The notes under the pieces were generated by a model. It saw nothing but the letters and a program-made list of their open reading frames with translations. It was not told where the DNA came from and did not search any database. 38,566 nt of DNA from a virus. Every line of letters starts with the position of its first letter. The stretch's first letter is position 1. The stretch covers positions 1 to 38,566 of IMG/VR virus record IMGVR_UViG_3300046323_000828; one strand, 5' to 3'. Positions 190 through 38,566 of the stretch are shown piece after piece. A program made the translations under genes and the position numbers.

Positions 190-1749
190 TTACTTTGGAA
201 ATATTATTGGTGAAGGCTCGGACACTCCTGCCAGCCTTGTAGCATACTTATCATACAGTAGGTAATCGGAAGCATCACCCAAGTCGGTTGCTTCTTCTCG
301 TCTATCCGTTAGTTTCCTTTCGGATGACTTATCCTTTTTGAATCCATCCTTAGCTGGTGTCTTGAGGATTGATATGATTGTAAATTTACAACCCTCTTGT
401 ATGTACCTAACTTTTGGTACGACTGGATATTCCTTCTCCGAGTATATCCGGTTAATCACATCATATCTAAGCGTATGGAGTTGCTCAACACCTCCTGTGC
501 TTATGTGATTAACTTGCCATCCCTTTTCATTGAACTTCATAATTATTGATTCAAAGTAAGATGGTGCATTATCAGCATCCTTCTTGTTTCCATTCCTATC
601 GCCCATAAGATTGACGATTTTAGTAGGATAGTCCTTGAACTTCTTGCAGAACTGCTCTACTAATTCAAGGTAAGATTCGTGCTTAACAAATAGCTCCTCG
701 TGAAATACAAATAAGGAATCGGATTCTTGACCCCATATCAAACTATTGAAGGCTGCATTAAAATCAAACGTAATATCAATTGCATTGTATGGATTGATTA
801 CATAATCAGTACATCCCAAGATACTGACACACTCATATACTCCTAACCAATCGCCACTATCCTGCAATCGCTCTATATTTTGTATTTGAGATGAATCTAA
901 ACCATATTGATAATAATAGTTATAAATGTCCTTTTGAGACACAGTATTCCTTTTTTCATCAAAAGCATAATAAAAGCAATCAGGCAACTTACTGATTCTT
1001 TCATTCATTATCTCAACGCTGAATTTGATGGGTGGCAATCGTTCCCGTTGGTCTTCTATCCATTGTTCCCCAAGAACTACCACATTATCCTCAGCAGATG
1101 CCTCCATGAAATAGTAAGTTTCAGGCTTTTCCTCTGCTAACTTTTCAAATATATAAATCCATTGCCCGGAAGGTAGCCAAGGGATGGAAGTATAGAGGCT
1201 AATAGACTGGTGCAAGTGATGCTTATATACATAGATATTGCCTCTGACCGTTTGGCTCAATACTTCAGTAAAGTCGTCTTTGTCGCATAGTGCTGCCTCA
1301 TCTATATCCATTGCATCAAAGCTCGCACCTCTTACCTTATCAATATCAACCAAACTAACCAATTCAATATGATAGCCATTTGGAAAACTTATGACATAAT
1401 CCCAATCCTTTGGCGGAGCAATCATTTCCTTTATCCACGATTTTGGGGGCTTGCGAAACAGAACGTAATCGCCTTCACCAGTTTCAAAATCATACTCCGA
1501 CATTTCATGCTCTCGCCAACACATTTCCATTGGTATCAGCGTCTTATTTTTCAAATGGCGGTAGGTCATGCCCACAAGTGCAGATTTTGCACCCGGAAGA
1601 GCTTTCATTTTGTCTATATTGTGCGCACCAATCAAATGCGACTTTCCAAACCCACGCCCACACAAAGCAAACTTGATTCTTTGCTTTGCAGCCAAAAAAT
1701 CCAGTTGCTTTGAATTAAAATACACATCTATTTCTTTTGCCTCAGTCAT
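190..1749 (-). CDS. terL: Terminase large subunit (ATPase/nuclease)
   Basis: This is the packaging motor that translocates phage DNA into the prohead at the portal and cuts the concatemer. The 519-residue protein has both expected domains. In the ATPase domain, Walker A is GRGFGKS at residues 31-37 and Walker B is MDIDE at 147-151, the E being the likely catalytic glutamate. In the C-terminal RNase H-like nuclease domain, acidic positions occur in TFDFN (D329), GDRNG (D384) and ATDLGDASDY (D489, D492, D495). Length is normal for TerL. Its start overlaps the end of the upstream gene by 8 bp, suggesting translational coupling with the small-subunit candidate. On the circle the portal gene follows after one small gene. 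Confidence 0.95.
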   Translation of the reverse strand: MTEAKEIDVYFNSKQLDFLAAKQRIKFALCGRGFGKSHLIGAHNIDKMKALPGAKSALVGMTYRHLKNKTLIPMEMCWREHEMSEYDFETGEGDYVLFRKPPKSWIKEMIAPPKDWDYVISFPNGYHIELVSLVDIDKVRGASFDAMDIDEAALCDKDDFTEVLSQTVRGNIYVYKHHLHQSISLYTSIPWLPSGQWIYIFEKLAEEKPETYYFMEASAEDNVVVLGEQWIEDQRERLPPIKFSVEIMNERISKLPDCFYYAFDEKRNTVSQKDIYNYYYQYGLDSSQIQNIERLQDSGDWLGVYECVSILGCTDYVINPYNAIDITFDFNAAFNSLIWGQESDSLFVFHEELFVKHESYLELVEQFCKKFKDYPTKIVNLMGDRNGNKKDADNAPSYFESIIMKFNEKGWQVNHISTGGVEQLHTLRYDVINRIYSEKEYPVVPKVRYIQEGCKFTIISILKTPAKDGFKKDKSSERKLTDRREEATDLGDASDYLLYDKYATRLAGVSEPSPIIFPK

Positions 1750-2305
1750 CTAATTGAATTCTTTTTTTAATTTTCTCCTCTTGCTTTTTCTTAAACAAAT
1801 CCGGGTCTGATGACCTAACAATAGTCACATTTTGGAAATACAAAGAAGGTTTTACGTCTTCTTTTTTATCATCATCAAACAAGCCATACAATTTATCAGC
1901 CTTTTCGCGCAATCTTCCGGCTGTTTCATAATCTCCGTCATCTTCTGCTTTTTGAGCTAATTCAACATATTTTTCGTGCGAAAAATACCTTTCAGCTTCT
2001 TTATTGATTTTATAGACATCCCCAAAAACCTCTATTGAATTATTGTATATGGTATAAGCCTGTCGAATACTAATTTTTAATCCTTCCTCAAAAAAATTAG
2101 GATTTTGTATAATCGCAATAACTTGCGATTTTGTATATTTTTTTTGCCTTAATTGCTGAATCTTGAGATACTTTTCAAGTTGTTTCTCAAGTTTGGGTAC
2201 TATCTTTTTTCGTCTTCCAAAAAGATAACCCTTTATTTTGTCAATATGCGATAGCTTTTTTTCAGCTAAAGCCATTTCTATTTTTATAAGTTCTTGATTA
2301 TCCAT
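1742..2305 (-). CDS. terS: Putative terminase small subunit
   Basis: A 187-residue, highly charged, mostly helical protein directly upstream of and overlapping terL, the usual place for the DNA-recognition subunit. Residues about 55-110 (KYTKSQVIAIIQNP and following) could form a helix-turn-helix-like unit, and residues about 105-145 look like a helical hairpin with the repeated acidic motif AEDDGDYETAGRLREKAD. The extreme N-terminus and the C-terminal tail are lysine-rich. The call is mainly from position and composition; I see no diagnostic motif. It could instead be a Bacteroidota phage gene of unknown role beside TerL. A copy of the AAATTTAATTAGTG leader element lies about 75 bp upstream. 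Confidence 0.55.
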   Translation of the reverse strand: MDNQELIKIEMALAEKKLSHIDKIKGYLFGRRKKIVPKLEKQLEKYLKIQQLRQKKYTKSQVIAIIQNPNFFEEGLKISIRQAYTIYNNSIEVFGDVYKINKEAERYFSHEKYVELAQKAEDDGDYETAGRLREKADKLYGLFDDDKKEDVKPSLYFQNVTIVRSSDPDLFKKKQEEKIKKRIQLDD

Positions 2306-2376
2306 AAGTTAATTTACGAAAAAAAGGCGTTAAAGTAAAATTCACTATATTTGCACATTGGATTTTCATTCATTTG

Positions 2377-2391
2377 AAAATTTAATTAGTG
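2377..2391 (-). promoter_or_regulatory. Leader element AAATTTAATTAGTG, copy upstream of terS
   Basis: The element reads AAAATTTAATTAGTG on the plus strand, identical in its core to copies immediately before the start codons of six accessory genes. Here the first minus-strand ATG downstream (2373) opens only a 19-codon frame ending at 2314, and terS itself starts at 2305. It may be a shared transcription or translation start element for the terminase operon; the short frame could be a leader peptide or chance. Confidence 0.45.
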
Positions 2392-2393
2392 AC

Positions 2394-2430
2394 GAAAAAA
2401 CCCCGCTTTTAGCAGGGTTTTTTCTTTTTT
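2394..2430. terminator. Bidirectional intrinsic terminator
   Basis: Hairpin 2400-2418 (arms ACCCCGC and GCAGGGT, loop TTTTA) is flanked by six A on the left and a long T-rich run on the right, so it can stop transcription on both strands. On the minus strand it directly follows the stop codon of the RarA-C-like gene and separates the accessory genes from the terminase operon. Confidence 0.85.
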
Positions 2431-3011
2431 CAGCTATTAAACAGATCCTTGGAAGGATTAGAAATGGAATTTCTTGCCTTCTCTCTATAATCATCTTCGC
2501 CCGGCACACTGCCTCGATTTTCCAACCAAGTACCTTCATCAAAAAAATGCTTCCAAGCCCTGCCAAGTTTTCGCCCACGCTCATTGTGCTTATCCAATGC
2601 AAAATCTGGAATATCTTTTTGCTCAAAATCGTGAACGTTCCAATGGTAGAGCAAAGCCCAGTCAATCAAACGAGATTTTTCAGCCCTGCAAAGCAAGATG
2701 ACAGCATGAGTAAGAAACAATCGTTCCGGCTGGTTCTTATCATCGCTCTGCTTGCTTTTTTTCGCTTGTTCCTGGTACATCTGATACAATGATTGAATAT
2801 TGGCAGATATATTCGGCTCGGCTAATCCAACATCCTCACTTGAAATAATTTTAAGGCGTTTCCATAAATACTCACCAAAATTGGAATTAAATAACTCCAC
2901 ACTCCAATACATTGCATCATCTTCCAAGCCTCTACGAATTGACTTTTGAAGCGCGCTTGCCACTTCAAATAAATCGTACCCTTTTTTAGTGGTTAAATTA
3001 TATCTATTCAT
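2430..3011 (-). CDS. Stand-alone RarA/MgsA C-terminal-like domain protein
   Basis: The 193-residue protein resembles only the C-terminal oligomerisation part of the RarA/MgsA (WRNIP1) family of AAA+ replication-recombination factors. The diagnostic segment is SALQKSIRRG at about residues 19-28, then DDAMYWSVEL, then WKRLKIISSEDVGLAEP near 51-67. This matches the family pattern ALHKSxRG..DAALYW....RR....SEDVGxA.P. No Walker A or B is present, so the ATPase half is absent by design or loss. RarA tetramers act at stalled replication forks with SSB and the clamp-loader system. A free C-terminal domain could interact with the host protein as a decoy or partner; that is inference. It is followed immediately by a terminator and is the last gene of the accessory block. 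Confidence 0.7.
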   Translation of the reverse strand: MNRYNLTTKKGYDLFEVASALQKSIRRGLEDDAMYWSVELFNSNFGEYLWKRLKIISSEDVGLAEPNISANIQSLYQMYQEQAKKSKQSDDKNQPERLFLTHAVILLCRAEKSRLIDWALLYHWNVHDFEQKDIPDFALDKHNERGRKLGRAWKHFFDEGTWLENRGSVPGEDDYREKARNSISNPSKDLFNS

Positions 3012-3053: not shown

Positions 3054-3260
3054 TTAGTTTTTAATTTTTTCAATTACAACCTTTGTCAATCGCTCAATTT
3101 CAGTACAATAAAACTCATAGAAATCATTCATATCATCAATTTGCTCCTGTATGCCGACTTCATTAATAGTCATTTGCAGAATGTCAAAAAAATTGTCTTT
3201 TAATTCCAAATTTCTAAGAATTTCATTTTTTAGCATCTCTAAAATTACTTGATTTTTCAT
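3054..3260 (-). CDS. Small acidic helical protein, unknown
   Basis: A 68-residue protein, apparently all-helical and acidic in the middle (IQEQIDDMNDFYEFY). I recognise no family. The start is well supported: the ATG is preceded at the normal short distance by the leader element at 3269-3282 and by a full copy of the long regulatory module shared with three other accessory genes. It is separated from the next gene by about 40 bp, so the two may be cotranscribed. Confidence 0.7.
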   Translation of the reverse strand: MKNQVILEMLKNEILRNLELKDNFFDILQMTINEVGIQEQIDDMNDFYEFYCTEIERLTKVVIEKIKN

Positions 3261-3268
3261 TTGATTTT

Positions 3269-3383
3269 AAATTTAATTAGTGATTTATTATACTGTAAAT
3301 CTCTTGATTATGAGCGAATTACAGAAATAAACAACCTTTTATTTTTCATCTTTTTGAAAGATTTACCTACGCATTTCCTACAC
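3269..3383 (-). promoter_or_regulatory. Accessory regulatory module, copy 1
   Basis: A conserved upstream module, read on the minus strand toward the gene starting at 3260. From distal to proximal it has tandem TAGG(A/T)AA repeats (3361-3383), a degenerate operator-like site TTGATTATGAG on the plus strand (3304-3314), the inverted repeat GATTTA-N8-TAAATC containing TATAAT (3282-3301) and the leader core (3269-3282). It is the most diverged of the four copies. Confidence 0.65.
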
Positions 3384-3391
3384 GAGAAAAG

Positions 3392-3447
3392 TTTGCATTT
3401 TGTAAATTAAATTTGCATTTTGTAAATTTAATTTACAAAATGCAAAT
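3392..3447. repeat. Direct repeat plus 37-bp near-perfect palindrome
   Basis: TTTGCATTTTGTAAATT occurs at 3392-3408 and again at 3412-3428. The second copy is followed, after one base, by its exact reverse complement at 3430-3447 (18-bp arms). The element lies just after the ardC stop codon and before regulatory module 1. It may act as a rho-independent-like stem, a protein-binding site or a recombination site; no T-run supports a classical terminator. Confidence 0.8.
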
Positions 3448-3452
3448 AGGTT

Positions 3453-4313
3453 TTAGTTTTCAAATTTTACATCTAAGATGTAATCCGCTGCTTTTTGTGC
3501 TTTATTGGCAGCATCAATGATAAACTTTTTATCACCCTTCAGAACCTTCAACCAGCCATCAATATAAGCTGCCGAATTATCCAAAGTACCGTTATCAATG
3601 CCTGCAAATCCACAAAGAAAGCTCGCGGTCATCTCCGCAGTTAGCTCCTCTTTTGAGTAATTGTAATCGCCATACTGAGACATTTCAGTTAGCTCGGGTC
3701 TATTGAGTCTGTTTTTATGCCCTGTGCTATGCGCTAACTCGTGGAACAGCGTAGCATAATACTCCTCGCCAGTGCTGAACTCTGTAATTTCAGGCATTTT
3801 GATTTCGTCAAAAATCGGAGAATAATAAGCCCTGCCGATGTACTCTGAAATGCTCGGTGCGTTTGGCATCAACTTAACAATCTGCTCACAAGCCTCAATT
3901 TTCTCATTGGCAGTTTTCACGCCTTCAGGAATATCAAATTCAATTCCCTCAACATCATCCACACTAAAAACGGTGTAGTATTTCAAAAAAGGAATTTTTT
4001 TGGCTTCGTCCCCAGCGTTTTCGCCTTCTTTTTCTACAAAATTATAGTAGATGACCGGAAAGCCCTTTGCACCCTTTTTCACATTTCCCTTCAGCTCTTT
4101 GGCTTGCAGGAAAGTAAGATAATAAGGCGTTTTCCCAGTAAAATTAAGCAAGAACGAATTGATGCCTCGATAATGCTTTCCGCTCTCATAATTCTTTGGC
4201 AATCCATAACGATTAAACGGACACTGCCAAGGAGCTACGCCCTGCTCGAGTTTTTCGATAATGATGTTCGTAATTTTTTCATAAACATCAATTTTTACAT
4301 TTTGATTTTTCAT
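3453..4313 (-). CDS. ardC: ArdC-type antirestriction protein
   Basis: ArdC proteins bind single-stranded DNA and protect incoming DNA from type I and some type II restriction; they carry an N-terminal ssDNA-binding domain and a C-terminal zinc-metallopeptidase domain. The 286-residue product has the N-terminal signature (Y-E-K-I-T, then GVAPWQCPF at 26-34, NYESGKHYRGINSFLL) and the metalloprotease motif HELAH at 191-195, followed by STGHKNRL. The downstream KEELTAEMTASFL (221-233) offers the third ligand glutamate. Length and order are complete for the family. It has its own regulatory module (copy 2), which suits early expression on entry. The best supported counter-defence gene in the window. 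Confidence 0.93.
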   Translation of the reverse strand: MKNQNVKIDVYEKITNIIIEKLEQGVAPWQCPFNRYGLPKNYESGKHYRGINSFLLNFTGKTPYYLTFLQAKELKGNVKKGAKGFPVIYYNFVEKEGENAGDEAKKIPFLKYYTVFSVDDVEGIEFDIPEGVKTANEKIEACEQIVKLMPNAPSISEYIGRAYYSPIFDEIKMPEITEFSTGEEYYATLFHELAHSTGHKNRLNRPELTEMSQYGDYNYSKEELTAEMTASFLCGFAGIDNGTLDNSAAYIDGWLKVLKGDKKFIIDAANKAQKAADYILDVKFEN

Positions 4314-4320
4314 TGACTTT

Positions 4321-4437
4321 AAAAATTTAATTAGTGATTTATTATACTGTAAATCTCTTGATTATCAGCAAGATACAGAAATTTACAACCTTTTATTTTG
4401 CAGCATTTTTGCGTTTTTTCCTACACTTTTCCTACAC
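4321..4437 (-). promoter_or_regulatory. Accessory regulatory module, copy 2 (ardC)
   Basis: Contains the leader core at 4322-4336, the inverted repeat GATTTA-N8-TAAATC with TATAAT (about 4336-4355), the site TTGATTATCAG at 4358-4368, and two head-to-tail TGTAGGAAAA repeats at 11-bp spacing (4413-4437). It is nearly identical to copies 3 and 4 over about 60 bp. TTGCTG is found 19 bp upstream of TATAAT on the minus strand, so a sigma-70-like reading is possible; a good TAnnTTTG box is not obvious. Confidence 0.7.
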
Positions 4438-4439
4438 AA

Positions 4440-4471
4440 TTTTAAAAAAAATACCCTCATTGCTGAGGGTA
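4440..4471 (-). terminator. Intrinsic terminator after J-domain gene
   Basis: Perfect 8-bp stem TACCCTCA / TGAGGGTA with loop TTGC at 4452-4471. On the minus strand it is followed by a run of eight T, immediately after the stop codon of the gene ending at 4478. Confidence 0.9.
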
Positions 4472-4477
4472 AAAAAC

Positions 4478-4945
4478 TTAAAACAAACCTATTTGAACCT
4501 TTGAAATTTTGCCTTTGTTGGCTTCATTTTTAGCCCATTTCCACGCTTGTTTCATTGCTTGGGAAAAGGTGTAATGTTTCGGTTTTTCGTTTTTAATTAT
4601 CTTAGGCTTGCCGTTTTCTCTTACTATTTTGAAAGCCTTGTTATCCTTATAGATAGCCCAAGCCTTTTGCATCACTTTTGCCAAAAATTGCTTTTTCAAT
4701 CGCATCAAAAGACTTTCTTCCTTGATTGCTAAGGCGTTGGATGACTTTGATTTCTCAATTTTTACAACTGCCTTGCAAGTTTCGGTTTTCTTTTTTTGGT
4801 ACTTTTTCAATGCCTTTTGATAGGCAATATTAATCTTTGACATCACATCCGCATTACCACCCATATCTGGGTGGTTAATTTTGGATAATCTTTTATACTC
4901 TGCTTTTACCTCAGCTTCAGTATTGAAATTTTTAAAATAATTCAT
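4478..4945 (-). CDS. J-domain (DnaJ-like) protein
   Basis: A 155-residue protein starting with a minimal J-domain: MNYFKNFNTEAEVKAEYKRL then SKINHPDMGG with the HPD motif, and a final helix MSKINIAYQKALKKY. J-domains stimulate DnaK-type Hsp70 ATPases. The rest is lysine-rich, ending in a helical segment around FSQAMKQAWKWAKNEA. No Gly/Phe-rich or zinc domain is present, so this is a type-III-like co-chaperone that may recruit host DnaK for replication or assembly. A longer frame opens at 5023, but the ATG at 4945 is chosen because the leader element (4951-4966) precedes it and the extra 26 residues overlap the upstream gene. Confidence 0.85.
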   Translation of the reverse strand: MNYFKNFNTEAEVKAEYKRLSKINHPDMGGNADVMSKINIAYQKALKKYQKKKTETCKAVVKIEKSKSSNALAIKEESLLMRLKKQFLAKVMQKAWAIYKDNKAFKIVRENGKPKIIKNEKPKHYTFSQAMKQAWKWAKNEANKGKISKVQIGLF

Positions 4946-4955
4946 TGGTGAAAAT

Positions 4956-5120
4956 TTAATTAGTGGGTTTGATAAATACCAAATATGATTTTGTTGGCGT
5001 GTCAAAAGACACAGAACACACATATTCTTTTAAAATTTCTAATGCCTCAGCTTCGCTGATTTGCACTGAATTTCGGAAATAGGTTATTTCACCTGTTTCA
5101 AGATTGATTACTGCTTCCAT
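4956..5120 (-). CDS. Small protein of 54 residues, unknown
   Basis: This short frame begins MEAVINLETGEITYFRNSVQ and ends LVFIKPTN. It is supported by its own leader element (5131-5144) placed just like those of its neighbours, and by its stop codon lying inside the leader element of the next gene. The pattern NLETGEITYFRNS suggests a small beta-hairpin. No family recognised. It lies between two other small genes of the same design in one probable operon. Confidence 0.65.
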   Translation of the reverse strand: MEAVINLETGEITYFRNSVQISEAEALEILKEYVCSVSFDTPTKSYLVFIKPTN

Positions 5121-5130
5121 TTGATTTTTA

Positions 5131-5144
5131 AAATTTAATTAGTG
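5131..5144 (-). promoter_or_regulatory. Leader element before the 54-residue gene
   Basis: Copy of AAATTTAATTAGTG (plus strand) ten bases upstream of the ATG at 5120. The longer module is not present here, so this short core probably works at translation or as a minimal internal start. A further short copy is at 4951-4966, before the J-domain gene. Confidence 0.5.
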
Positions 5145-5149
5145 ATTTG

Positions 5150-5329
5150 TTAAAAGTTTGAAGGACGCTCGTTGGCATCAAACATATCAATTATCCTCAA
5201 TGCTTTAAAAAAGACATAGCCCGCACCTGCTTTTCTTGAATAACAGGCAAAATCTTTTTCATTGAAAAGGTAGGCTTTTCCTTTTGCATCAAGCAACTCT
5301 AAAACCCAAGATTTAATCGTTTTTTTCAT
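5150..5329 (-). CDS. Small protein of 59 residues, unknown
   Basis: The frame begins MKKTIKSWVLELLDAKGKAY and ends MFDANERPSNF. It is preceded by the full regulatory module (copy 3) with the leader element at 5338-5351, so it is the first gene of a three-gene operon with the 54-residue protein and the J-domain protein. The sequence looks globular, mixed alpha/beta. No family recognised. Confidence 0.7.
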   Translation of the reverse strand: MKKTIKSWVLELLDAKGKAYLFNEKDFACYSRKAGAGYVFFKALRIIDMFDANERPSNF

Positions 5330-5337
5330 TTGATTTA

Positions 5338-5452
5338 AAATTTAATTAGTGATTTATTATACTGTAAATCTCTTGATTATCAGCAAGATACAGAAATAAA
5401 CAACTTATTATTTTGCATCATAATTGCGTTTTTTCCTACGCATTTCCTACAC
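5338..5452 (-). promoter_or_regulatory. Accessory regulatory module, copy 3
   Basis: Leader core 5338-5351, palindromic segment with TATAAT at 5351-5370, TTGATTATCAG at 5373-5383, and tandem TAGGAAA repeats at 5429-5452. Nearly identical to copy 4 from the leader core through the motif ATACAGAAATAAACAACTTATTA. Confidence 0.7.
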
Positions 5453-5462
5453 TGGTTTATAA

Positions 5463-5512
5463 AAAATAATAGTCCATTTTGGACATTTAACTGTCTTAAA
5501 TGGACTATTTAA
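5463..5512 (-). terminator. Intrinsic terminator after the 5525-6136 gene
   Basis: Twelve-base arms AATAGTCCATTT (5468-5479) and AAATGGACTATT (5498-5509) form a strong stem. On the minus strand it is followed by a T-rich tract. It lies just downstream of the stop at 5525. Confidence 0.85.
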
Positions 5513-5524
5513 AAAACAAATTAT

Positions 5525-6136
5525 CTAAAATGGACAATTTCCAACTTTTTCAATTACTTCATTTTGAATTGATTCTGATTTCTTAACACCAAAAAATTGA
5601 TTAATTAAGTGCTGGCAGTAGTAATCTTTTGGCTCAAATCCGGTTAGTGTATAGAAGTCATCAATCGCACTTTGTAGCTTCTGCTTGTACTGTGTTATAT
5701 AAGTACCTTTACGGTATGTACTCACAAAATTGATAATTTCCTGAATTACTTCCTGTTCGTCAAGCAATAAGCTATACATTTCAATCATCTCATTTGCTTG
5801 GATATCCAATGGCAACCCTGCATTATCAAAGTACCCGGAAGAAACATCCTTCAAAAAATTCTTATCTCCCCACTTTTCAAAGTTAGCTTTTGGGAACGGA
5901 CTTAGATTACTGGCGATGATACCTTCAATGCTCAAATCAATTTTTTCGGCACTAAGAGCCTCCAAATAATTCATTGAAACTTGAATAAGCTCATCAGTAG
6001 GCTTGCCAAATTTCGCACTTACTTTTTTATCACATTTGTTGATGTGGTTTTTTCTACCTACCTCAGTAGCCCACGTTTGATAATCGTTTTGAGTTAAACC
6101 CTCGTTTTTTTGCAAAAATCTTTCTGAATTTTTCAT
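5525..6136 (-). CDS. Accessory protein, unknown
   Basis: A 203-residue soluble protein without signal peptide or membrane segment. The middle (about residues 45-110) mixes helical and loop segments, and the C-terminal half is helical with DFYTLTGFEPKDYYCQHLINQ near 170. I recognise no domain. It is a single-gene unit: its own full regulatory module (copy 4) is upstream and its own strong terminator downstream. Being packaged with ArdC-type neighbours under the same control suggests an early host-takeover or counter-defence role, but this is inference only. Confidence 0.8.
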   Translation of the reverse strand: MKNSERFLQKNEGLTQNDYQTWATEVGRKNHINKCDKKVSAKFGKPTDELIQVSMNYLEALSAEKIDLSIEGIIASNLSPFPKANFEKWGDKNFLKDVSSGYFDNAGLPLDIQANEMIEMYSLLLDEQEVIQEIINFVSTYRKGTYITQYKQKLQSAIDDFYTLTGFEPKDYYCQHLINQFFGVKKSESIQNEVIEKVGNCPF

Positions 6137-6143
6137 TTGAATA

Positions 6144-6259
6144 AAATTTAATTAGTGTTTTATTATACTGTAAATCTCTTGATTATCAGCAAGATACAGA
6201 AATAAACAACTTATTATTTTTCATCTTTTTTGCATTTTTTCCTACGCATTTATTACGCA
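6144..6259 (-). promoter_or_regulatory. Accessory regulatory module, copy 4
   Basis: Leader core 6144-6157, TATAAT segment about 6157-6176 (one arm of the inverted repeat carries a change), TTGATTATCAG at 6179-6189, and tandem repeats TGCGTAATAAA / TGCGTAGGAAA at 6235-6259. Confidence 0.7.
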
Positions 6260-6350: not shown

Positions 6351-6446
6351 ATGAAACGTAAATATTTGATGTTGCTCAAAAGAGCATTAAGCTGGCTTAC
6401 CCAAATAGGAAATTTAGCCTATTTGATTTATCGGTTTTTATTTTAA
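6351..6446 (+). CDS. 31-residue hydrophobic, basic mini-ORF
   Basis: The frame starts MKRKYLMLLKRALSWLTQIG and ends LAYLIYRFLF: a basic N-terminus and one long hydrophobic stretch, like small membrane-active peptides. It lies on the plus strand, opposite to neighbours, after a TAnnTTTG match and before a stem-loop. Such short frames arise by chance in AT-rich DNA, so the call is tentative. Confidence 0.35.
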   Translation: MKRKYLMLLKRALSWLTQIGNLAYLIYRFLF

Positions 6447-6453
6447 AACAACA

Positions 6454-6476
6454 AAGCCCCTCAAATTGAGGGGCTT
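6454..6476. terminator. Strong stem-loop, likely minus-strand terminator
   Basis: Eleven-base arms AAGCCCCTCAA and TTGAGGGGCTT with a one-base spacer. On the minus strand it is followed by the T-rich TTGTTGTTTT, which suits termination of the late/accessory transcript that ends with the glycosyltransferase-like gene. On the plus strand no T-run follows. Confidence 0.75.
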
Positions 6477-6639: not shown

Positions 6640-7374
6640 TTAAAAAGGCAATTTCATAGTCTTTTGATATGGGTGCTTTCTTTTGGCTTTTTTGGTGTCC
6701 ATCTTGAATTGAATCGCCTCACCGAAATACTTTTTCAAAAGTTTAAAATCATCTTCCTCAACGCCCAAACTCCTAAACTCAGCCAAACCGCCTGCACTGG
6801 TGAAGGTATCTTTTTGCACAAAACAAAACCGCAAATCCTTCCAAATGATACGATGATAGTACGCATTCAGGCAACTTATCCAATAATCTTCATTGCATTT
6901 TATTTGAGGATTGTACTTTAATCTTGAACCTTCAAGCAATCCGGTTGCACAACCAGTTATGTAACCAGTCAAACGGATAGGCTCAAAGACATTATACAAA
7001 GTCGGATTAGGCACATTGGAAAATCCCCACAGATACGCTCCGGCTTGCTTCGCACAATAAGCAGTTTCTTCAATGATACTTTTTGCTAATTCCATCCCTA
7101 TTTTATCATTCTCCTTGGGACCAATATAAACCCTGCGAAAATGAGTAATATCATCATCCAACATCATCACATTTCCGAAGTATCTATAAATCCAATCCCT
7201 TTTTGCTGCCAATCCTATCACACTATCTGGATGCGTTACTATTTCGCAATCAGGATTATGCTTTTCATAATCGGTTTTTTGAGATTCAGGCACGCAAATA
7301 ATCACCTCTACCACTTTTTTGGTAAGGCATTTATTTGCTCTTTTATGGCTGGGTACTACGATTTTGATTTCCAT
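6640..7374 (-). CDS. Glycosyltransferase-like (GT-A fold) protein
   Basis: A 244-residue protein with features of a compact GT-A glycosyltransferase: an N-terminal strand IVVPSHKRA (5-13), an ICVPESQKTDYEKHNP segment, AAKRDWI (56-62) and the metal/nucleotide-binding motif MMLDDDIT (70-77) with D73-D75. CNEDYW near 165-170 may hold the catalytic acid. It resembles the small DNA-modification-associated glycosyltransferases of phages more than cell-surface enzymes, and no membrane segment is present. It overlaps the upstream ParB-like gene by 19 bp, so both are made together. A role in glycosylating modified DNA bases is inferred from fold and context; a protein or saccharide substrate remains possible. 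Confidence 0.65.
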   Translation of the reverse strand: MEIKIVVPSHKRANKCLTKKVVEVIICVPESQKTDYEKHNPDCEIVTHPDSVIGLAAKRDWIYRYFGNVMMLDDDITHFRRVYIGPKENDKIGMELAKSIIEETAYCAKQAGAYLWGFSNVPNPTLYNVFEPIRLTGYITGCATGLLEGSRLKYNPQIKCNEDYWISCLNAYYHRIIWKDLRFCFVQKDTFTSAGGLAEFRSLGVEEDDFKLLKKYFGEAIQFKMDTKKAKRKHPYQKTMKLPF

Positions 7375-8018
7375 AACTCTGCAAATTTTTTGGCACTGAT
7401 TACTTTACTCGTTCCTATTTCTTTTGATTTGTGGCTTTGCTCGGTCTCAATCTGCAATACTTCCTTCAAAAAATTGGTATCAATTTCATTTGTAGAAACA
7501 ATAATAAAAGCATCATACTTTTCCGAAAACTTCGGCACAATATTATAAACAGGCTTTTCAATGGCTTCAATCTCATCATTAAAATTCCCATTTCCACTCT
7601 CCAATATCTTTTCGATATCATCAGCCGAAAACCCGCTTTCTTCCAAAACAGTCAAATCAAACTGCTCTTTCAATATAAAGTTATCCCATTCACCCCCTGC
7701 TTTGTTGGCGATGATTACAGCTCTCTCGCACTGCTCAGCAGTCCAAGCCACTTGCCTATAAGCAAACTTCTCGTTTTCAAAAATCACATAACCCAAAGCC
7801 ACAGTTCCCTGAACAGTAGGCGGGTCAAAGGTTTGTGCAATTTCAATTTCGGCAATACTCAAGTCGATCACTTTCATTCTTTGATTGCCTGAAATGATTT
7901 CATCACTATTCAAGTCATGAACAATACCGCCCAAGTCGCCTAATTCCTTCATCCATTTGGCAAGGTCATTGAGGCTTTCTTCAGAGATTTTACGAGGATT
8001 CTTGTGATAATTTTTCAT
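7356..8018 (-). CDS. ParB N-terminal-domain-like protein
   Basis: A 220-residue protein whose first about 90 residues follow the ParB/Spo0J N-terminal (CTPase/nuclease-like) pattern: NPRKISEESLNDLAKWMKEL, then GIVHDLNSDEIISGNQRMKV with GNQR at 44-47 in place of GHRR. Later parts (YRQVAWTAEQCERAVIIANK, GEWDNFILKEQFD) match the region found in phage ParB-like proteins that accompany DNA methylases. No ParB helix-turn-helix is seen. The overlap with the glycosyltransferase-like gene points to a two-gene DNA-processing or DNA-modification unit. It probably does not serve in partition. Confidence 0.8.
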   Translation of the reverse strand: MKNYHKNPRKISEESLNDLAKWMKELGDLGGIVHDLNSDEIISGNQRMKVIDLSIAEIEIAQTFDPPTVQGTVALGYVIFENEKFAYRQVAWTAEQCERAVIIANKAGGEWDNFILKEQFDLTVLEESGFSADDIEKILESGNGNFNDEIEAIEKPVYNIVPKFSEKYDAFIIVSTNEIDTNFLKEVLQIETEQSHKSKEIGTSKVISAKKFAELWKSKS

Positions 8019-24197: not shown

Positions 24198-25973
24198 TTA
24201 TTCGGGGTAAGTTTCACAAACACTTTTTTCATCTTTCAAAAGCTCCTCAATTGCACGCTTCCAATCGGCTTTTGTTTTATGCTTTGATTTGTTTTTCCAG
24301 CTTCCGATATCGGAGAACTCTTTGATGATATACTGAGGATTTTCCTCATAACGAGTCGATTCACAACGATATATTTTGAATCCAGCATTGAATAACTTGA
24401 ATCTATCATAGCCAGCAAAGCACCATCTGTTTTTTTGTTGCAGTTCCTCAATTTGCTTTTGAAAGTCATCATAATTTTTCTTTACTTCTTCGACTTCTTC
24501 CTTTCTTTTTTGGCACACAAAACTAATGAAGCCTCTAAAGTATTTGTATTGATTGCGAGGAATGGCAACATAATCCTTTTGAAACTGAACAGGCATTTCA
24601 GCATATAAGCCGAAAAATTCTTTTTGAAGTTCTTTGTTTTTATAGTCTTCTTCCGTGAATTTGTCTTTTTCGGGAATTATTGGTTTGGCTTCTTGATGAT
24701 GAACACCAAAATATTTGAGTGCAGCTTGAAACACTTCTCTATATTCGGCTGATGTGATTTCCGTAAAATTGCTAAATCTCGGCATTTCCTCCTTGAATGG
24801 GGCAATTATCTTATATCTTTGATTCATACTATCTTCCTCAACCATTTGGAAATTTTCATTCGCACAATCAATATAGATGGTAGTTTGATACTCCTCAGCC
24901 TTACATTTATAGTAGCCATCTTTCCAATCAACTTCCGCAGCTTCCGAAATTTCGGGAAATTTCGGAGTTTCGGGAATTTGCTTAGTAGTATTTGCAGGAT
25001 TGACTCGATATATTTTATCCAACATCCCAGTCGACCTTCTTGACAATAATCGCTTTTCATTTATCATTTTGGTCAATATATTTTCAGTTGCACCAAATAC
25101 TTTGACCAAATTCGTAAAGGTATTTTCACCAACTTTTAGAAGGTGATTGTAAATATTACGTTCAATTTCCGTTTCTTTCGGGGTTTTTACTTCATTCAAA
25201 AATTTTGCAAACTTTGTTTCAGCTTCTTCCGGCAAAGGCTGTTCCATCGGTTTTGTTTTGGGAAGCAAATCACTTAATGGCTTGCCTTGCTCCAATCCTT
25301 CAGCTATATCAATAATTTCAACCATTGGCAATTCCGCAATTTCAAGCAATTTCTTTTTCGGAATATCAATTTCCTTACTCAATATCTTGTTTCGCAAGGT
25401 AGAAGAACCAAGAACCGACACCTTATCGAGTGCATCAGCAAATTGCTCATCTCTTTTGATTGTATTTTCCGATACTTTGTGAGTTTCGGCAAGTTTCTTC
25501 GCAGTTGTTTTCAATTCAGTATGTTTGAATGATTCAATTCCCGTTTCATTCAAAGGCTCATTGTGAGCTTTTGAAATTTCGGTTTTTCTATCGCCTCCAT
25601 GAGTGTTTTTCATTTGGCGATACTGCAAACCTCTAAGGTAAGATATTTCGTTTTCGGTCAAATTTCGCTTGCCTAATTGATTATCAATCATCCATTCTTT
25701 GACCTTTTCTATGTTTTCAAATTCTCTTTCAACATACAGAAAATCAAGTCCGTATTTTTGGGAAATTGAAAATCGGTTATGACCATCCACGAGTATATGC
25801 TCCTGCCCTCTTTTCCACAATATGAGCATATCTCGGATTCCTTCTTCTCGGATGTTTTCTTCCAATTGCTCATACTCTAATTTGCTTAGTGGGCGTATCA
25901 AATCCCGCAGTTCCGGGAGTATGATTATTTGTGGATTGTTGTGGTTTGGTTTATTGATTATTTGTGCATTCAT
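24198..25973 (-). CDS. ParB-family protein with long C-terminal extension
   Basis: A 591-residue protein whose first about 200 residues form a complete ParB/Spo0J core: LSKLEYEQLEENIREEGI, the CTP-binding box LVDGHNRFSI (GHNR at 64-67), IDNQLGKRNLTENEISYLRG, and a helix-turn-helix region AKKLAETHKVSENTIKRDEQ (about 155-175). The remaining residues include a possible winged segment (IYNHLLKVGENTFTNLVKVF) and unknown C-terminal part. No ParA-type ATPase is encoded in the window. Lying downstream of the GTCGAT array and replication genes, it may bind this array for partition, transcription or replication control. Confidence 0.85.
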   Translation of the reverse strand: MNAQIINKPNHNNPQIIILPELRDLIRPLSKLEYEQLEENIREEGIRDMLILWKRGQEHILVDGHNRFSISQKYGLDFLYVEREFENIEKVKEWMIDNQLGKRNLTENEISYLRGLQYRQMKNTHGGDRKTEISKAHNEPLNETGIESFKHTELKTTAKKLAETHKVSENTIKRDEQFADALDKVSVLGSSTLRNKILSKEIDIPKKKLLEIAELPMVEIIDIAEGLEQGKPLSDLLPKTKPMEQPLPEEAETKFAKFLNEVKTPKETEIERNIYNHLLKVGENTFTNLVKVFGATENILTKMINEKRLLSRRSTGMLDKIYRVNPANTTKQIPETPKFPEISEAAEVDWKDGYYKCKAEEYQTTIYIDCANENFQMVEEDSMNQRYKIIAPFKEEMPRFSNFTEITSAEYREVFQAALKYFGVHHQEAKPIIPEKDKFTEEDYKNKELQKEFFGLYAEMPVQFQKDYVAIPRNQYKYFRGFISFVCQKRKEEVEEVKKNYDDFQKQIEELQQKNRWCFAGYDRFKLFNAGFKIYRCESTRYEENPQYIIKEFSDIGSWKNKSKHKTKADWKRAIEELLKDEKSVCETYPE

Positions 25974-26927: not shown

Positions 26928-26973
26928 TTGTGTTAGGGTGTATGTGTCCGTTCTATTTTAATGCTTATTTACT

Positions 26974-27171
26974 ATCGACTTATCGACTAATCTTCTTATA
27001 CTGCTCAAAAACAGGGTTTTTGTAGTCGATAAGCCCTGTTTACTTATCGACTTTCTATCGACTTTAGTCGATAAGTCGATAAGTCGATAGCAAGTCGATA
27101 GTATTTTTTTTGCTATCGACTGTTTTTTGTGCGTTTCTGCATTGGAAATGCAGTAAAGTCGATAAGTCGAC
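26974..27171. repeat. GTCGAT repeat array: replication origin or parS-like candidate
   Basis: Eleven GTCGAT/ATCGAC hexamers plus one GTCGAC occur within 198 bp: starts at 26974, 26982, 27025, 27046, 27057, 27067, 27075, 27083, 27094, 27115, 27158 and 27166. In the centre three are in tandem at exact 8-bp spacing (27067-27088). Both orientations are used. Two hairpins lie inside: AAACAGGG/CCCTGTTT (27009-27041) and CTGCATT/AATGCAG (27137-27153). The array sits between the primase-helicase and the downstream small genes, with no convincing gene in the whole gap 26928-27260. It looks like initiator iterons or a ParB-binding centromere. Confidence 0.8.
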
Positions 27172-27260
27172 AAGATATTTTAATTGAAAAGCTACACCCC
27201 TAAAAAATAATAAAGCGGAGCTTTGAAAATCGGACGTGTTGTGTTTTTTTGACATCTTAT

Positions 27261-31267: not shown

Positions 31268-31436
31268 TTTGGGTTATTAAAAATAATTTATTACTATTTT
31301 ATCATTTTTGATAAACTTTTGCTAAATTTGATAGTATATTATCAAAAATGATATTGCAATAGTAAAAAATATTTTACTAAAAGTAAAATATTTTTACTAA
31401 TATTTTTTATTTTTTTTATAACAAATTGATAATCAA
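31268..31436. promoter_or_regulatory. Divergent switch region with two families of operators
   Basis: Between the two regulator genes lie TATCATTTTTGATA (31300-31313) and TATCAAAAATGATA (31340-31353), both TATCA-N4-TGATA, and AGTAAAA-N4-TTTTACT (31361-31378) and AGTAAAA-N3-TTTTACT (31382-31398). A fifth palindrome, TTGATAATCAA (31426-31436), touches the ATG at 31437. TAAATTTG at 31323-31330 matches the -7 consensus on the plus strand, between the first pair. The order suggests two proteins binding competing sites. Confidence 0.75.
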
Positions 31437-31772
31437 ATGAATAATTTCGAGGGAAAAGTAAAAAGACTATTGGCAGAGCGTAAAATCACAATTGACCAAC
31501 TTGCTGCCGGAATTGAGATGACTAAGCAGAATCTGCATGACAGGTTTAAAAAGGAAAGCATTGACACCAAGCATTTGGAAAAAATTGCTGATTTCTTGGA
31601 AGTCAATATTTCTTATTTTTTCGCTGATGATGAAAATAATACACTTCTTGACCCGCCCGGAAAATATGGGCTTTATGAAGAAGTAATCAAGGCTAAGGAT
31701 GAAACCATTGACAGTCTTAAAAAATTGGTTAGGAATTATGAATCACAACTAAACAATAGAATACAGGCATGA
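31437..31772 (+). CDS. XRE-family helix-turn-helix repressor
   Basis: A 111-residue protein with an N-terminal HTH_3 domain (KRLLAERKITIDQLAAGIEM, TKQNLHDRFK, IDTKHLEKIADFLEVNISYF; residues about 8-62) and a C-terminal coiled coil (EEVIKAKDETIDSLKKLVRN) for dimerisation. No S24 autopeptidase domain, so induction is not by RecA-type self-cleavage. Position and coupling to a lipoprotein gene fit the prophage repressor. It probably binds at least one of the palindromes in the gap, including the one overlapping its own translation start. Confidence 0.85.
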   Translation: MNNFEGKVKRLLAERKITIDQLAAGIEMTKQNLHDRFKKESIDTKHLEKIADFLEVNISYFFADDENNTLLDPPGKYGLYEEVIKAKDETIDSLKKLVRNYESQLNNRIQA

Positions 31773-38418: not shown

Positions 38419-38544
38419 TTTTTTTACAATAAATTTAACCTTTTTTTAAAATATTAACAAATTTGCAGTCAAAATAAATATAAACACTTGATAATAAATC
38501 AATTATGTTACATTTATATTCATTTTTAATTCAATTTGAAAGGC
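38419..38544. repeat. Direct terminal repeat, right copy
   Basis: Exact copy of positions 1-126. The last 22 bases (38545-38566) do not continue as position 127 onward does: they are the reverse complement of positions 116-137, joined at a GGC shared by both. Confidence 0.85.
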
Positions 38545-38566
38545 GTCGCAATCAAGCCTTTCAAAT

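Follow-up and report, generated by a model that had tools for sequence, protein, structure and literature searches.

Repeated promoter-like modules mark a likely counter-restriction island in a temperate Bacteroidota-type phage

Results

We analysed the whole of IMG/VR virus record IMGVR_UViG_3300046323_000828, a stretch of 38,566 nt that is called the window below. Four ~123-bp segments of its minus strand, designated M1 to M4, head separate gene units in an island between a glycosyltransferase (GT) gene and the terminase genes. We favour, at a probability of roughly 0.6, the reading that a regulated promoter, specific to the phage and multiplied or homogenised inside each one, organizes an accessory island rich in counter-restriction genes. 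An earlier note on this DNA had described four near-identical segments with the same order of elements, at 3269-3383, 4321-4437, 5338-5452, and 6144-6259, and had attributed them to cassette acquisition, with conserved control DNA in front of unrelated genes. These segments were confirmed, on the minus strand. The interpretation also stands in kind, but the idea that each gene brought its own control DNA probably does not.

Read 5' to 3', each module consists of a direct repeat of two 11-bp units (GTGTAGGAAATGCGTAGGAAA in M3; consensus GTGTAGGAAAT-GCGTAGGAAAA), an AT-rich spacer that varies, CTGATAATCAAGA, the core GATTTACAGTATAATAAATC with its TATAAT, and the leader CACTAATTAAATTT. On the minus strand, M4 (6137-6259) carries the direct repeat at 6238-6258 and the core at 6157-6176. 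The corresponding positions are 5432-5452 and 5351-5370 in M3 (5330-5452), 4417-4437 and 4336-4355 in M2 (4314-4437), and 3363-3383 and 3282-3301 in M1 (3261-3383). The distance from TATAAT to the ATG is 25-27 nt in all four modules, and that from the direct repeat to the TTTACAGTATAAT core is 82 nt. Pairwise identity amounts to 71-83% across ~160 bp; the four copies hardly vary in their 3' 55 bp, where substitutions are very few, and the differences sit in the upstream half. When the window was compared with itself by BLAST, all six module pairs were recovered at E<1e-6, and the sole other internal repeat was the 126-bp terminal repeat. The core did not recur elsewhere in the window within 4 mismatches, and the genome outside M1-M4 held no comparable module copy.

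Some of the shared motifs were described too uniformly in the earlier note. The GATTTA-N8-TAAATC motif is exact in M1-M3, but one arm is changed in M4 (TAAAAC). Tandem TAGGAAA heptamers are exact in M2 and M3, but one unit reads TAGGTAA in M1 and TAATAAA in M4. The third shared element, TTGATTATCAG, is present in M2 (4358-4368), M3 (5373-5383), and M4 (6179-6189), but M1 carries TTGATTATGAG instead (3304-3314). The informative sites among the four copies conflict, with 3, 1, and 5 sites for the three possible groupings, a pattern compatible with gene conversion. Rfam gave nothing close to its gathering scores for the modules, and the folding of the module RNA is weak (z -0.8 to -2.7); for the latter reason, no structured leader is claimed.

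Each module starts after an intrinsic terminator and ends at a start codon. The terminators lie upstream of M4 (6454-6476, bidirectional, fold z -5.1), between the p203 unit and M3 (5468-5509, z -6.0), between the J-domain unit and M2 (4452-4471, minus strand, z -4.7), and between ardC and M1 (3411-3447, z -7.2); a fifth closes the island before the terminase genes (2394-2424, minus strand, z -6.8). With a stable terminator before each module, the region forms a series of units insulated from one another, namely M4-p203, M3-p59-p54-J-domain, M2-ArdC, and M1-p68-MgsA_C. Terminator and promoter-like module thus flank each unit, as in the layout of a moron, and the neighbouring GT and terminase-small-subunit-like (TerS-like) genes are conserved. 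Within the window, each unit has a different terminator hairpin. The upstream terminator, the start codon right downstream, and the constant spacing make the modules promoter-like, in agreement with the earlier proposal that they drive separate genes. On the plus strand at 6351-6446, a 31-codon membrane-like open reading frame (ORF) lies behind a TATTTTTG box, before the terminator at 6454-6476 and antisense to the island.

The leader occurs seven times in the window. Three copies (5144, 4965, and 2391) lack the promoter part and precede p54, the J-domain gene, and a 19-codon ORF at 2373. As the leader recurs without the promoter part, it is separable from it and would be a translation-start element. 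The seventh leader (2373-2391, minus strand) lies right on the T-run of the terminator that closes the island, before the 19-codon ORF MNENPMCKYSEFYFNAFFS, and resembles what a lost cassette would leave behind.

Exact scans with the module patterns retrieved none from IMG/VR or GTDB, and blastn of the module against phage and plasmid collections gave chance matches only. Nearer relatives were recruited with GT and MgsA_C profiles. Three of them, L165, L229, and L230, share the ParB, GT, MgsA_C, p203, and terminase genes with the window; their GT and MgsA_C proteins are 54-60% identical to those of the window, against ~20-35% for structural proteins. A bipartite scan was carried out with matrices derived from the window alone, a repeat-core distance of 40-100 nt being allowed, and with ten Markov shuffles per relative. 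The best match lay within the same island in each case, with a score of 38.3 for L230 (best of the 10 shuffles, 16.1), 32.7 for L229 (22.4), and a weak 21.5 for L165 (18.2). Diverged copies of the direct repeat are present in L229 and L230. The distance from repeat to core is 61 nt in L165, in both copies of L229, and in L230. In a fixed-anchor test, five of eight anchors had 61 as the top-ranking offset among 106, and the two anchors chosen regardless of the repeat (L165a and L230a), which alone are unbiased, give by themselves odds of ~1 in 10^4. The 82 nt of the window equal 61+21, two helical turns more than in the relatives. Matches with 61-nt spacing in G006 and G007 were dropped, as their scores fell within those of the shuffles and they apparently lay in conserved coding sequence.

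The same layout is found with unrelated sequence. The prophage of Tenacibaculum sp. MAR_2009_124 (L106) has ParB, GT (47%), and then four modules that are 90-95% alike. Each consists of a terminator plus CTTTCTGTAAAACAAGGGTACGTTCGTAC, is unrelated in sequence to the window module, and includes the hairpin in the repeat. They precede a 61-aa gene, a gene for ArdcN with DUF4942/methyltransferase (MTase), a 112-aa gene followed by MgsA_C (47%), and a 171-aa gene; the region upstream of the L106 TerS gene is different, of a TGTCC type. In L248, two repeats of yet another version stand before p203 and before a small-gene operon. As the earlier note had anticipated for related phages, the diverged modules stand between genes, where a gene begins, and the genes that follow them vary. 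Likeness within a phage and divergence between phages are general in these comparisons. This speaks for copying or conversion of the promoter inside a genome rather than for its arrival with each gene; it seems to be a property of the phage lineage that is copied onto incoming genes. The acquisition of genes together with their control DNA is therefore probably the wrong explanation, since the module differs from phage to phage while the genes (MgsA_C, ArdC, and p203) persist.

In a wider survey, GT lay upstream of MgsA_C in 47 loci, with 77 bp to 4.4 kb between them. Intergenic repeats that end at start codons were found in 26 of 197 loci, and several resemble late promoters. A TGTCCTWTT motif is common to L119, L103, L125, L114, L128, L080, and L006, followed by TTGACAATTGCCA in the first three. 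It sits right behind terminators, before protease, ParB-like, and TerS-like genes of Bacteroidota phages, and is late-promoter-like. A literature search on repeated promoters in Bacteroidetes phages gave no match with the terms used.

The genes of the four units lie on the minus strand. The identity of ArdC (3453-4313) is solid by sequence: it has the ArdcN and MPTase-PolyVal domains (E 3e-33 and 2e-34), with 115 bits for PF08401 (cut-off 22.6) and 118.6 bits for the zincin metallopeptidase PF18818 (cut-off 27.5). ArdC of R388 helps DNA past restriction (PMC7213743). The downstream genes are as given in the earlier note, except that it had missed the second gene of the M1 unit, after p68 (3054-3260), and that the J-domain gene most likely starts at 4945. 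The missed gene encodes a 193-aa MgsA_C-type protein (2430-3011; PF12002, 37.9 bits, cut-off 27) without an AAA+ part, 45-60% identical in the relatives. The M3 unit begins with p59 (5150-5329), followed by p54 (4956-5120), preceded by a leader only, and the 155-aa J-domain-like protein (4478-4945), which has its own leader. The HPD motif is present in the latter, and Pfam DnaJ gave 19.6 bits (E=0.001), below the cut-off of 27.8; small proteins of L229/G003 and, judged by eye, of L248 are similar to the C-terminal part of this protein.

p203 (5525-6136) represents a new family, with members in the window, L165, L229, L230, L248, and L254, and without named relatives in the profile libraries searched. 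The predicted model is all-helical (pLDDT 84), and a fold search gave no PDB match; the best viral fold match, to a 1475-aa protein (E 0.0099, TM 0.37), is too weak to assign. A p203-like domain also occurs at about residues 764-918 of a 2083-aa Tenacibaculum protein (L253, 2996-9247, minus strand). This protein has no Pfam or PHROG match and is possibly of the polyvalent type. Defence-system profiles did not match the island proteins, nor did Pfam, PHROG, or NCBIfam give a regulator match among the island proteins scanned.

The record comprises a genome of 38.4 kb with a 126-bp terminal repeat and is on that account probably complete; its final 22 nt past the repeat (within 38539-38566) are a fold-back of 116-143 and probably an assembly artefact. 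The phage is temperate and of a Bacteroidota type: it has XRE regulator and integrase genes and a 1145-aa tape measure protein, its relatives are Leef_1-like, and its terminase is closest to those of Bacteroidota phages and prophages (26-35% identity). The island lies within the late operon, all on one strand. On its upstream side are genes for the capsid protease, the major capsid protein, a ParB-like protein (7356-8018, minus strand), and the TET-associated-type GT (6640-7374, minus strand). The terminase genes lie downstream, beginning with the TerS-like gene (1742-2305, minus strand), which was called from its position beside the large subunit. In Leef_1, the gene preceding the TerS-like gene overlaps it, and the island is absent there. 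The XRE regulator gene is at 31437-31772; inverted repeats with TATCATTTTTGATAA at 31279-31374, between two divergent regulator genes, form a second candidate operator set. Repeated iteron-like AGTCGATAAGTCGATA units at 26956-27189, in a 333-bp gap, may mark a replication origin or a partition site.

Discussion

From the sequence we infer the promoter function, the regulator and its mode (activation versus repression), the counter-restriction role, and the copying. Each module would be a copy of one phage-specific regulated promoter plus leader. A regulator would bind the upstream direct repeat, a putative protein-bound element that must face the polymerase, and from there, at a constant distance in phase with the helix, influence RNA polymerase at the TTTACAGTATAAT core, while the short leader would supply a ribosome-loading region. 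The spacings of 61 nt (relatives) and 82 nt (window) would fit a class I activator layout if a start site is assumed: with TATAAT set at -12 to -7, the repeat is centred at about -71.5 in the relatives and -92.5 in the window. Both distances are known to work for class I activators. With the four copies, the island would comprise four units that terminators insulate and that are controlled in common, independently of the late promoters. New genes would join this control by copying or homogenisation of the resident promoter within the phage.

The content of the island, ArdC here and comparable genes in relatives, would protect the phage genome from restriction. The counter-defence content proposed in the earlier note is supported by ArdC and, in the relatives, by ArdC-N, N6-MTase, DUF4942-MTase, DUF932, and SymE-like genes; the wider GT-MgsA_C islands contain ArdC, DUF932, SymE-like, and methyltransferase genes and, in distant loci, UDP-sugar dehydrogenases and other methyltransferases. 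A counter-restriction island is our best reading. The analogy with p576 (PMC8708921) makes the early timing proposed in the earlier note plausible, but the place of the island inside the late operon does not support it.

Several points weigh against this reading. Some anchors of the spacing test (L229 and the second of L230) were picked with the 61-nt spacing in view. The repeat of L165 is weak, the second L165 module has none, and none is clear in L248. Nor does the core match the TAnnTTTG box that is usual in Bacteroidota. An all-against-all comparison of the module-bearing phages gave no shared regulator gene, the genes in common being ParB, GT, MgsA_C, p203, and structural genes. Finally, the island genes of distant relatives also include sugar-nucleotide and S-adenosylmethionine-dependent enzymes, so that counter-restriction is a theme and not a rule; the sugar genes are consistent with a DNA-modifying GT.

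The strongest competitor, which we hold to be less likely than not, is that the lysogeny repressor of the phage itself keeps the modules, as promoters, switched off, TTGATTATCAG being a copy of its operator TTGATNATCAA; the island would then be silent in the lysogen and burst into expression at infection or induction, like genes under p576 Reg or Aca-controlled anti-CRISPR genes. TTGATNATCAA is a candidate repressor operator by sequence. It is a perfect palindrome found four times against 0.41 expected, about ten-fold (none of 200 shuffles reached four), with three copies (31426, 32167, and 32224) placed around the gene for the XRE regulator and ahead of the integrase gene, and a fourth at 25677. 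The TTGATTATCAG of the modules is one base off this palindrome, and the 21 bp by which the window exceeds the spacing of its relatives are located around that site. On the other hand, the operator copy is imperfect in all four modules, with two mismatches in M1, and 9-mers common to the modules and the immunity region are at chance level (0.30 of shuffles). The module palindrome of L106, GTACGTTCGTA, was rejected as the L106 immunity operator, since it was not found in that prophage outside the island. The candidates for regulation are an activator encoded by the phage, acting at the direct repeat, and the lysogeny repressor, acting at TTGATTATCAG. The two may act together; our confidences in the two readings are thus not exclusive.

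It is unlikely that the modules belong to classical morons, with lysogen-active promoters serving the host, for example in defence against other phages, and not the infecting phage. Promoter-gene-terminator units inside a late operon do match the definition of a moron, and several island genes are still of unknown function. However, ArdC, ArdC-N, and the methyltransferases of the relatives act for incoming DNA and not for the host (PMC7213743 for ArdC), no defence-system profile matched, and classical morons do not share one promoter. We consider it quite improbable that the modules are late promoters. The island is inside the late operon, and relatives (Polaribacter, Arenibacter, and Hymenobacter) do repeat late promoters of the TGTCC type within one genome, before protease, ParB-like, and TerS-like genes. 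Yet no structural gene in the window has a module before it, which led us to reject this identity. The 15-mer TTTTTTTCGTAAATT, a candidate late promoter element, has two occurrences in the genome (12256 and 2325, minus strand), upstream of the capsid protease and TerS-like genes only, so that late genes seem to use something other than the module; and L106 has both types, TGTCC at TerS and the other in the island. Least probable by far are recombination sites or mobile sequences (integron-like, or like miniature inverted-repeat transposable elements) with no role as promoters. The copies are repeated, flank variable genes, and show conflicting site patterns, but their position at gene starts, the fixed distance to the ATG, the TATAAT, and the repeat-core spacing that is fixed across diverged phages do not fit, and exact scans of IMG/VR and GTDB found no copies elsewhere.

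Related phages keep the layout and the site, each with its own promoter version, and under the reading of a copied, regulated promoter this DNA marks a regulated island of likely counter-defence genes. A bolder generalization, which we find rather doubtful, is that the phages of one Bacteroidota clade assemble their counter-defence islands around a promoter that is private to them, evolves fast, and depends on an activator. It would be copied and homogenised per genome, so that any gene in the slot between GT and MgsA_C/terminase joins one switchable regulon. If that were true, the promoter repeat would find new anti-defence genes, p203, p68, p59, and p54 first, and the regulator would be phage-encoded and co-evolve with its 11-bp direct repeat. 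Repeated private promoters would permit accessory islands to be recognized without annotation, and genes of unknown function to be ranked where homology fails. The analysis also points to a recurring insertion slot beside a DNA-glycosyltransferase-type gene in Bacteroidota phages and to the p203 family. The regulator, if found, would make it testable at what time such phages turn their counter-restriction genes on.

Comparison with known systems

The closest known systems are the establishment promoters of plasmid p576, the promoter-early stem-loop (PeSL) cassettes of T4-type phages, and phage morons. Morons are likewise promoter-gene-terminator units inserted between late genes, but each has its own promoter, whereas the present units carry four copies of one promoter. 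Frpo promoters of plasmid leading regions resemble the modules in that one promoter type is copied before anti-restriction and counter-defence genes, but they work as folded single-stranded DNA during conjugation (PMC11541004). The DNA of tailed phages enters double-stranded, and the present modules fold weakly. The start-associated sequences (SAS and extended SAS) of cluster K mycobacteriophages are also phage-specific repeats just upstream of many starts and stand before different genes across relatives; they are 13 bp long, thought to be translational, and genome-wide (PMC3203893), whereas the modules span ~120 bp with promoter and leader and are confined to one island.

PeSL cassettes (Arbiol 2010 and Comeau 2014, cited in PMC4503421) are repeated terminator-promoter intergenic units in accessory regions, with a proposed role in gene shuffling. 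They belong to variable regions of T4-type myoviruses, unlike the present 38-kb temperate Leef_1-like phage. The promoters of PeSLs are reported to be of the early sigma70 type, and the stem-loop to be part of what is repeated; here, the promoter part is repeated and the terminators differ between units of the window (in L106, the hairpin is in the repeat).

The EGeRS2 promoters of p576 (pLS20 family; PMC8708921) are likewise four repeated promoters with tandem direct repeats, heading separate units that include ardC. They belong to a conjugative Bacillus plasmid, with heptamers 2 bp apart beside the -35 box, bound by a ribbon-helix-helix (RHH) repressor, Reg, whose gene is part of the regulon (PMC8708921). 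Here the carrier is a phage, the units are of 11 bp at about -92, and no RHH gene was identified among the island proteins scanned with Pfam, PHROG, and NCBIfam.

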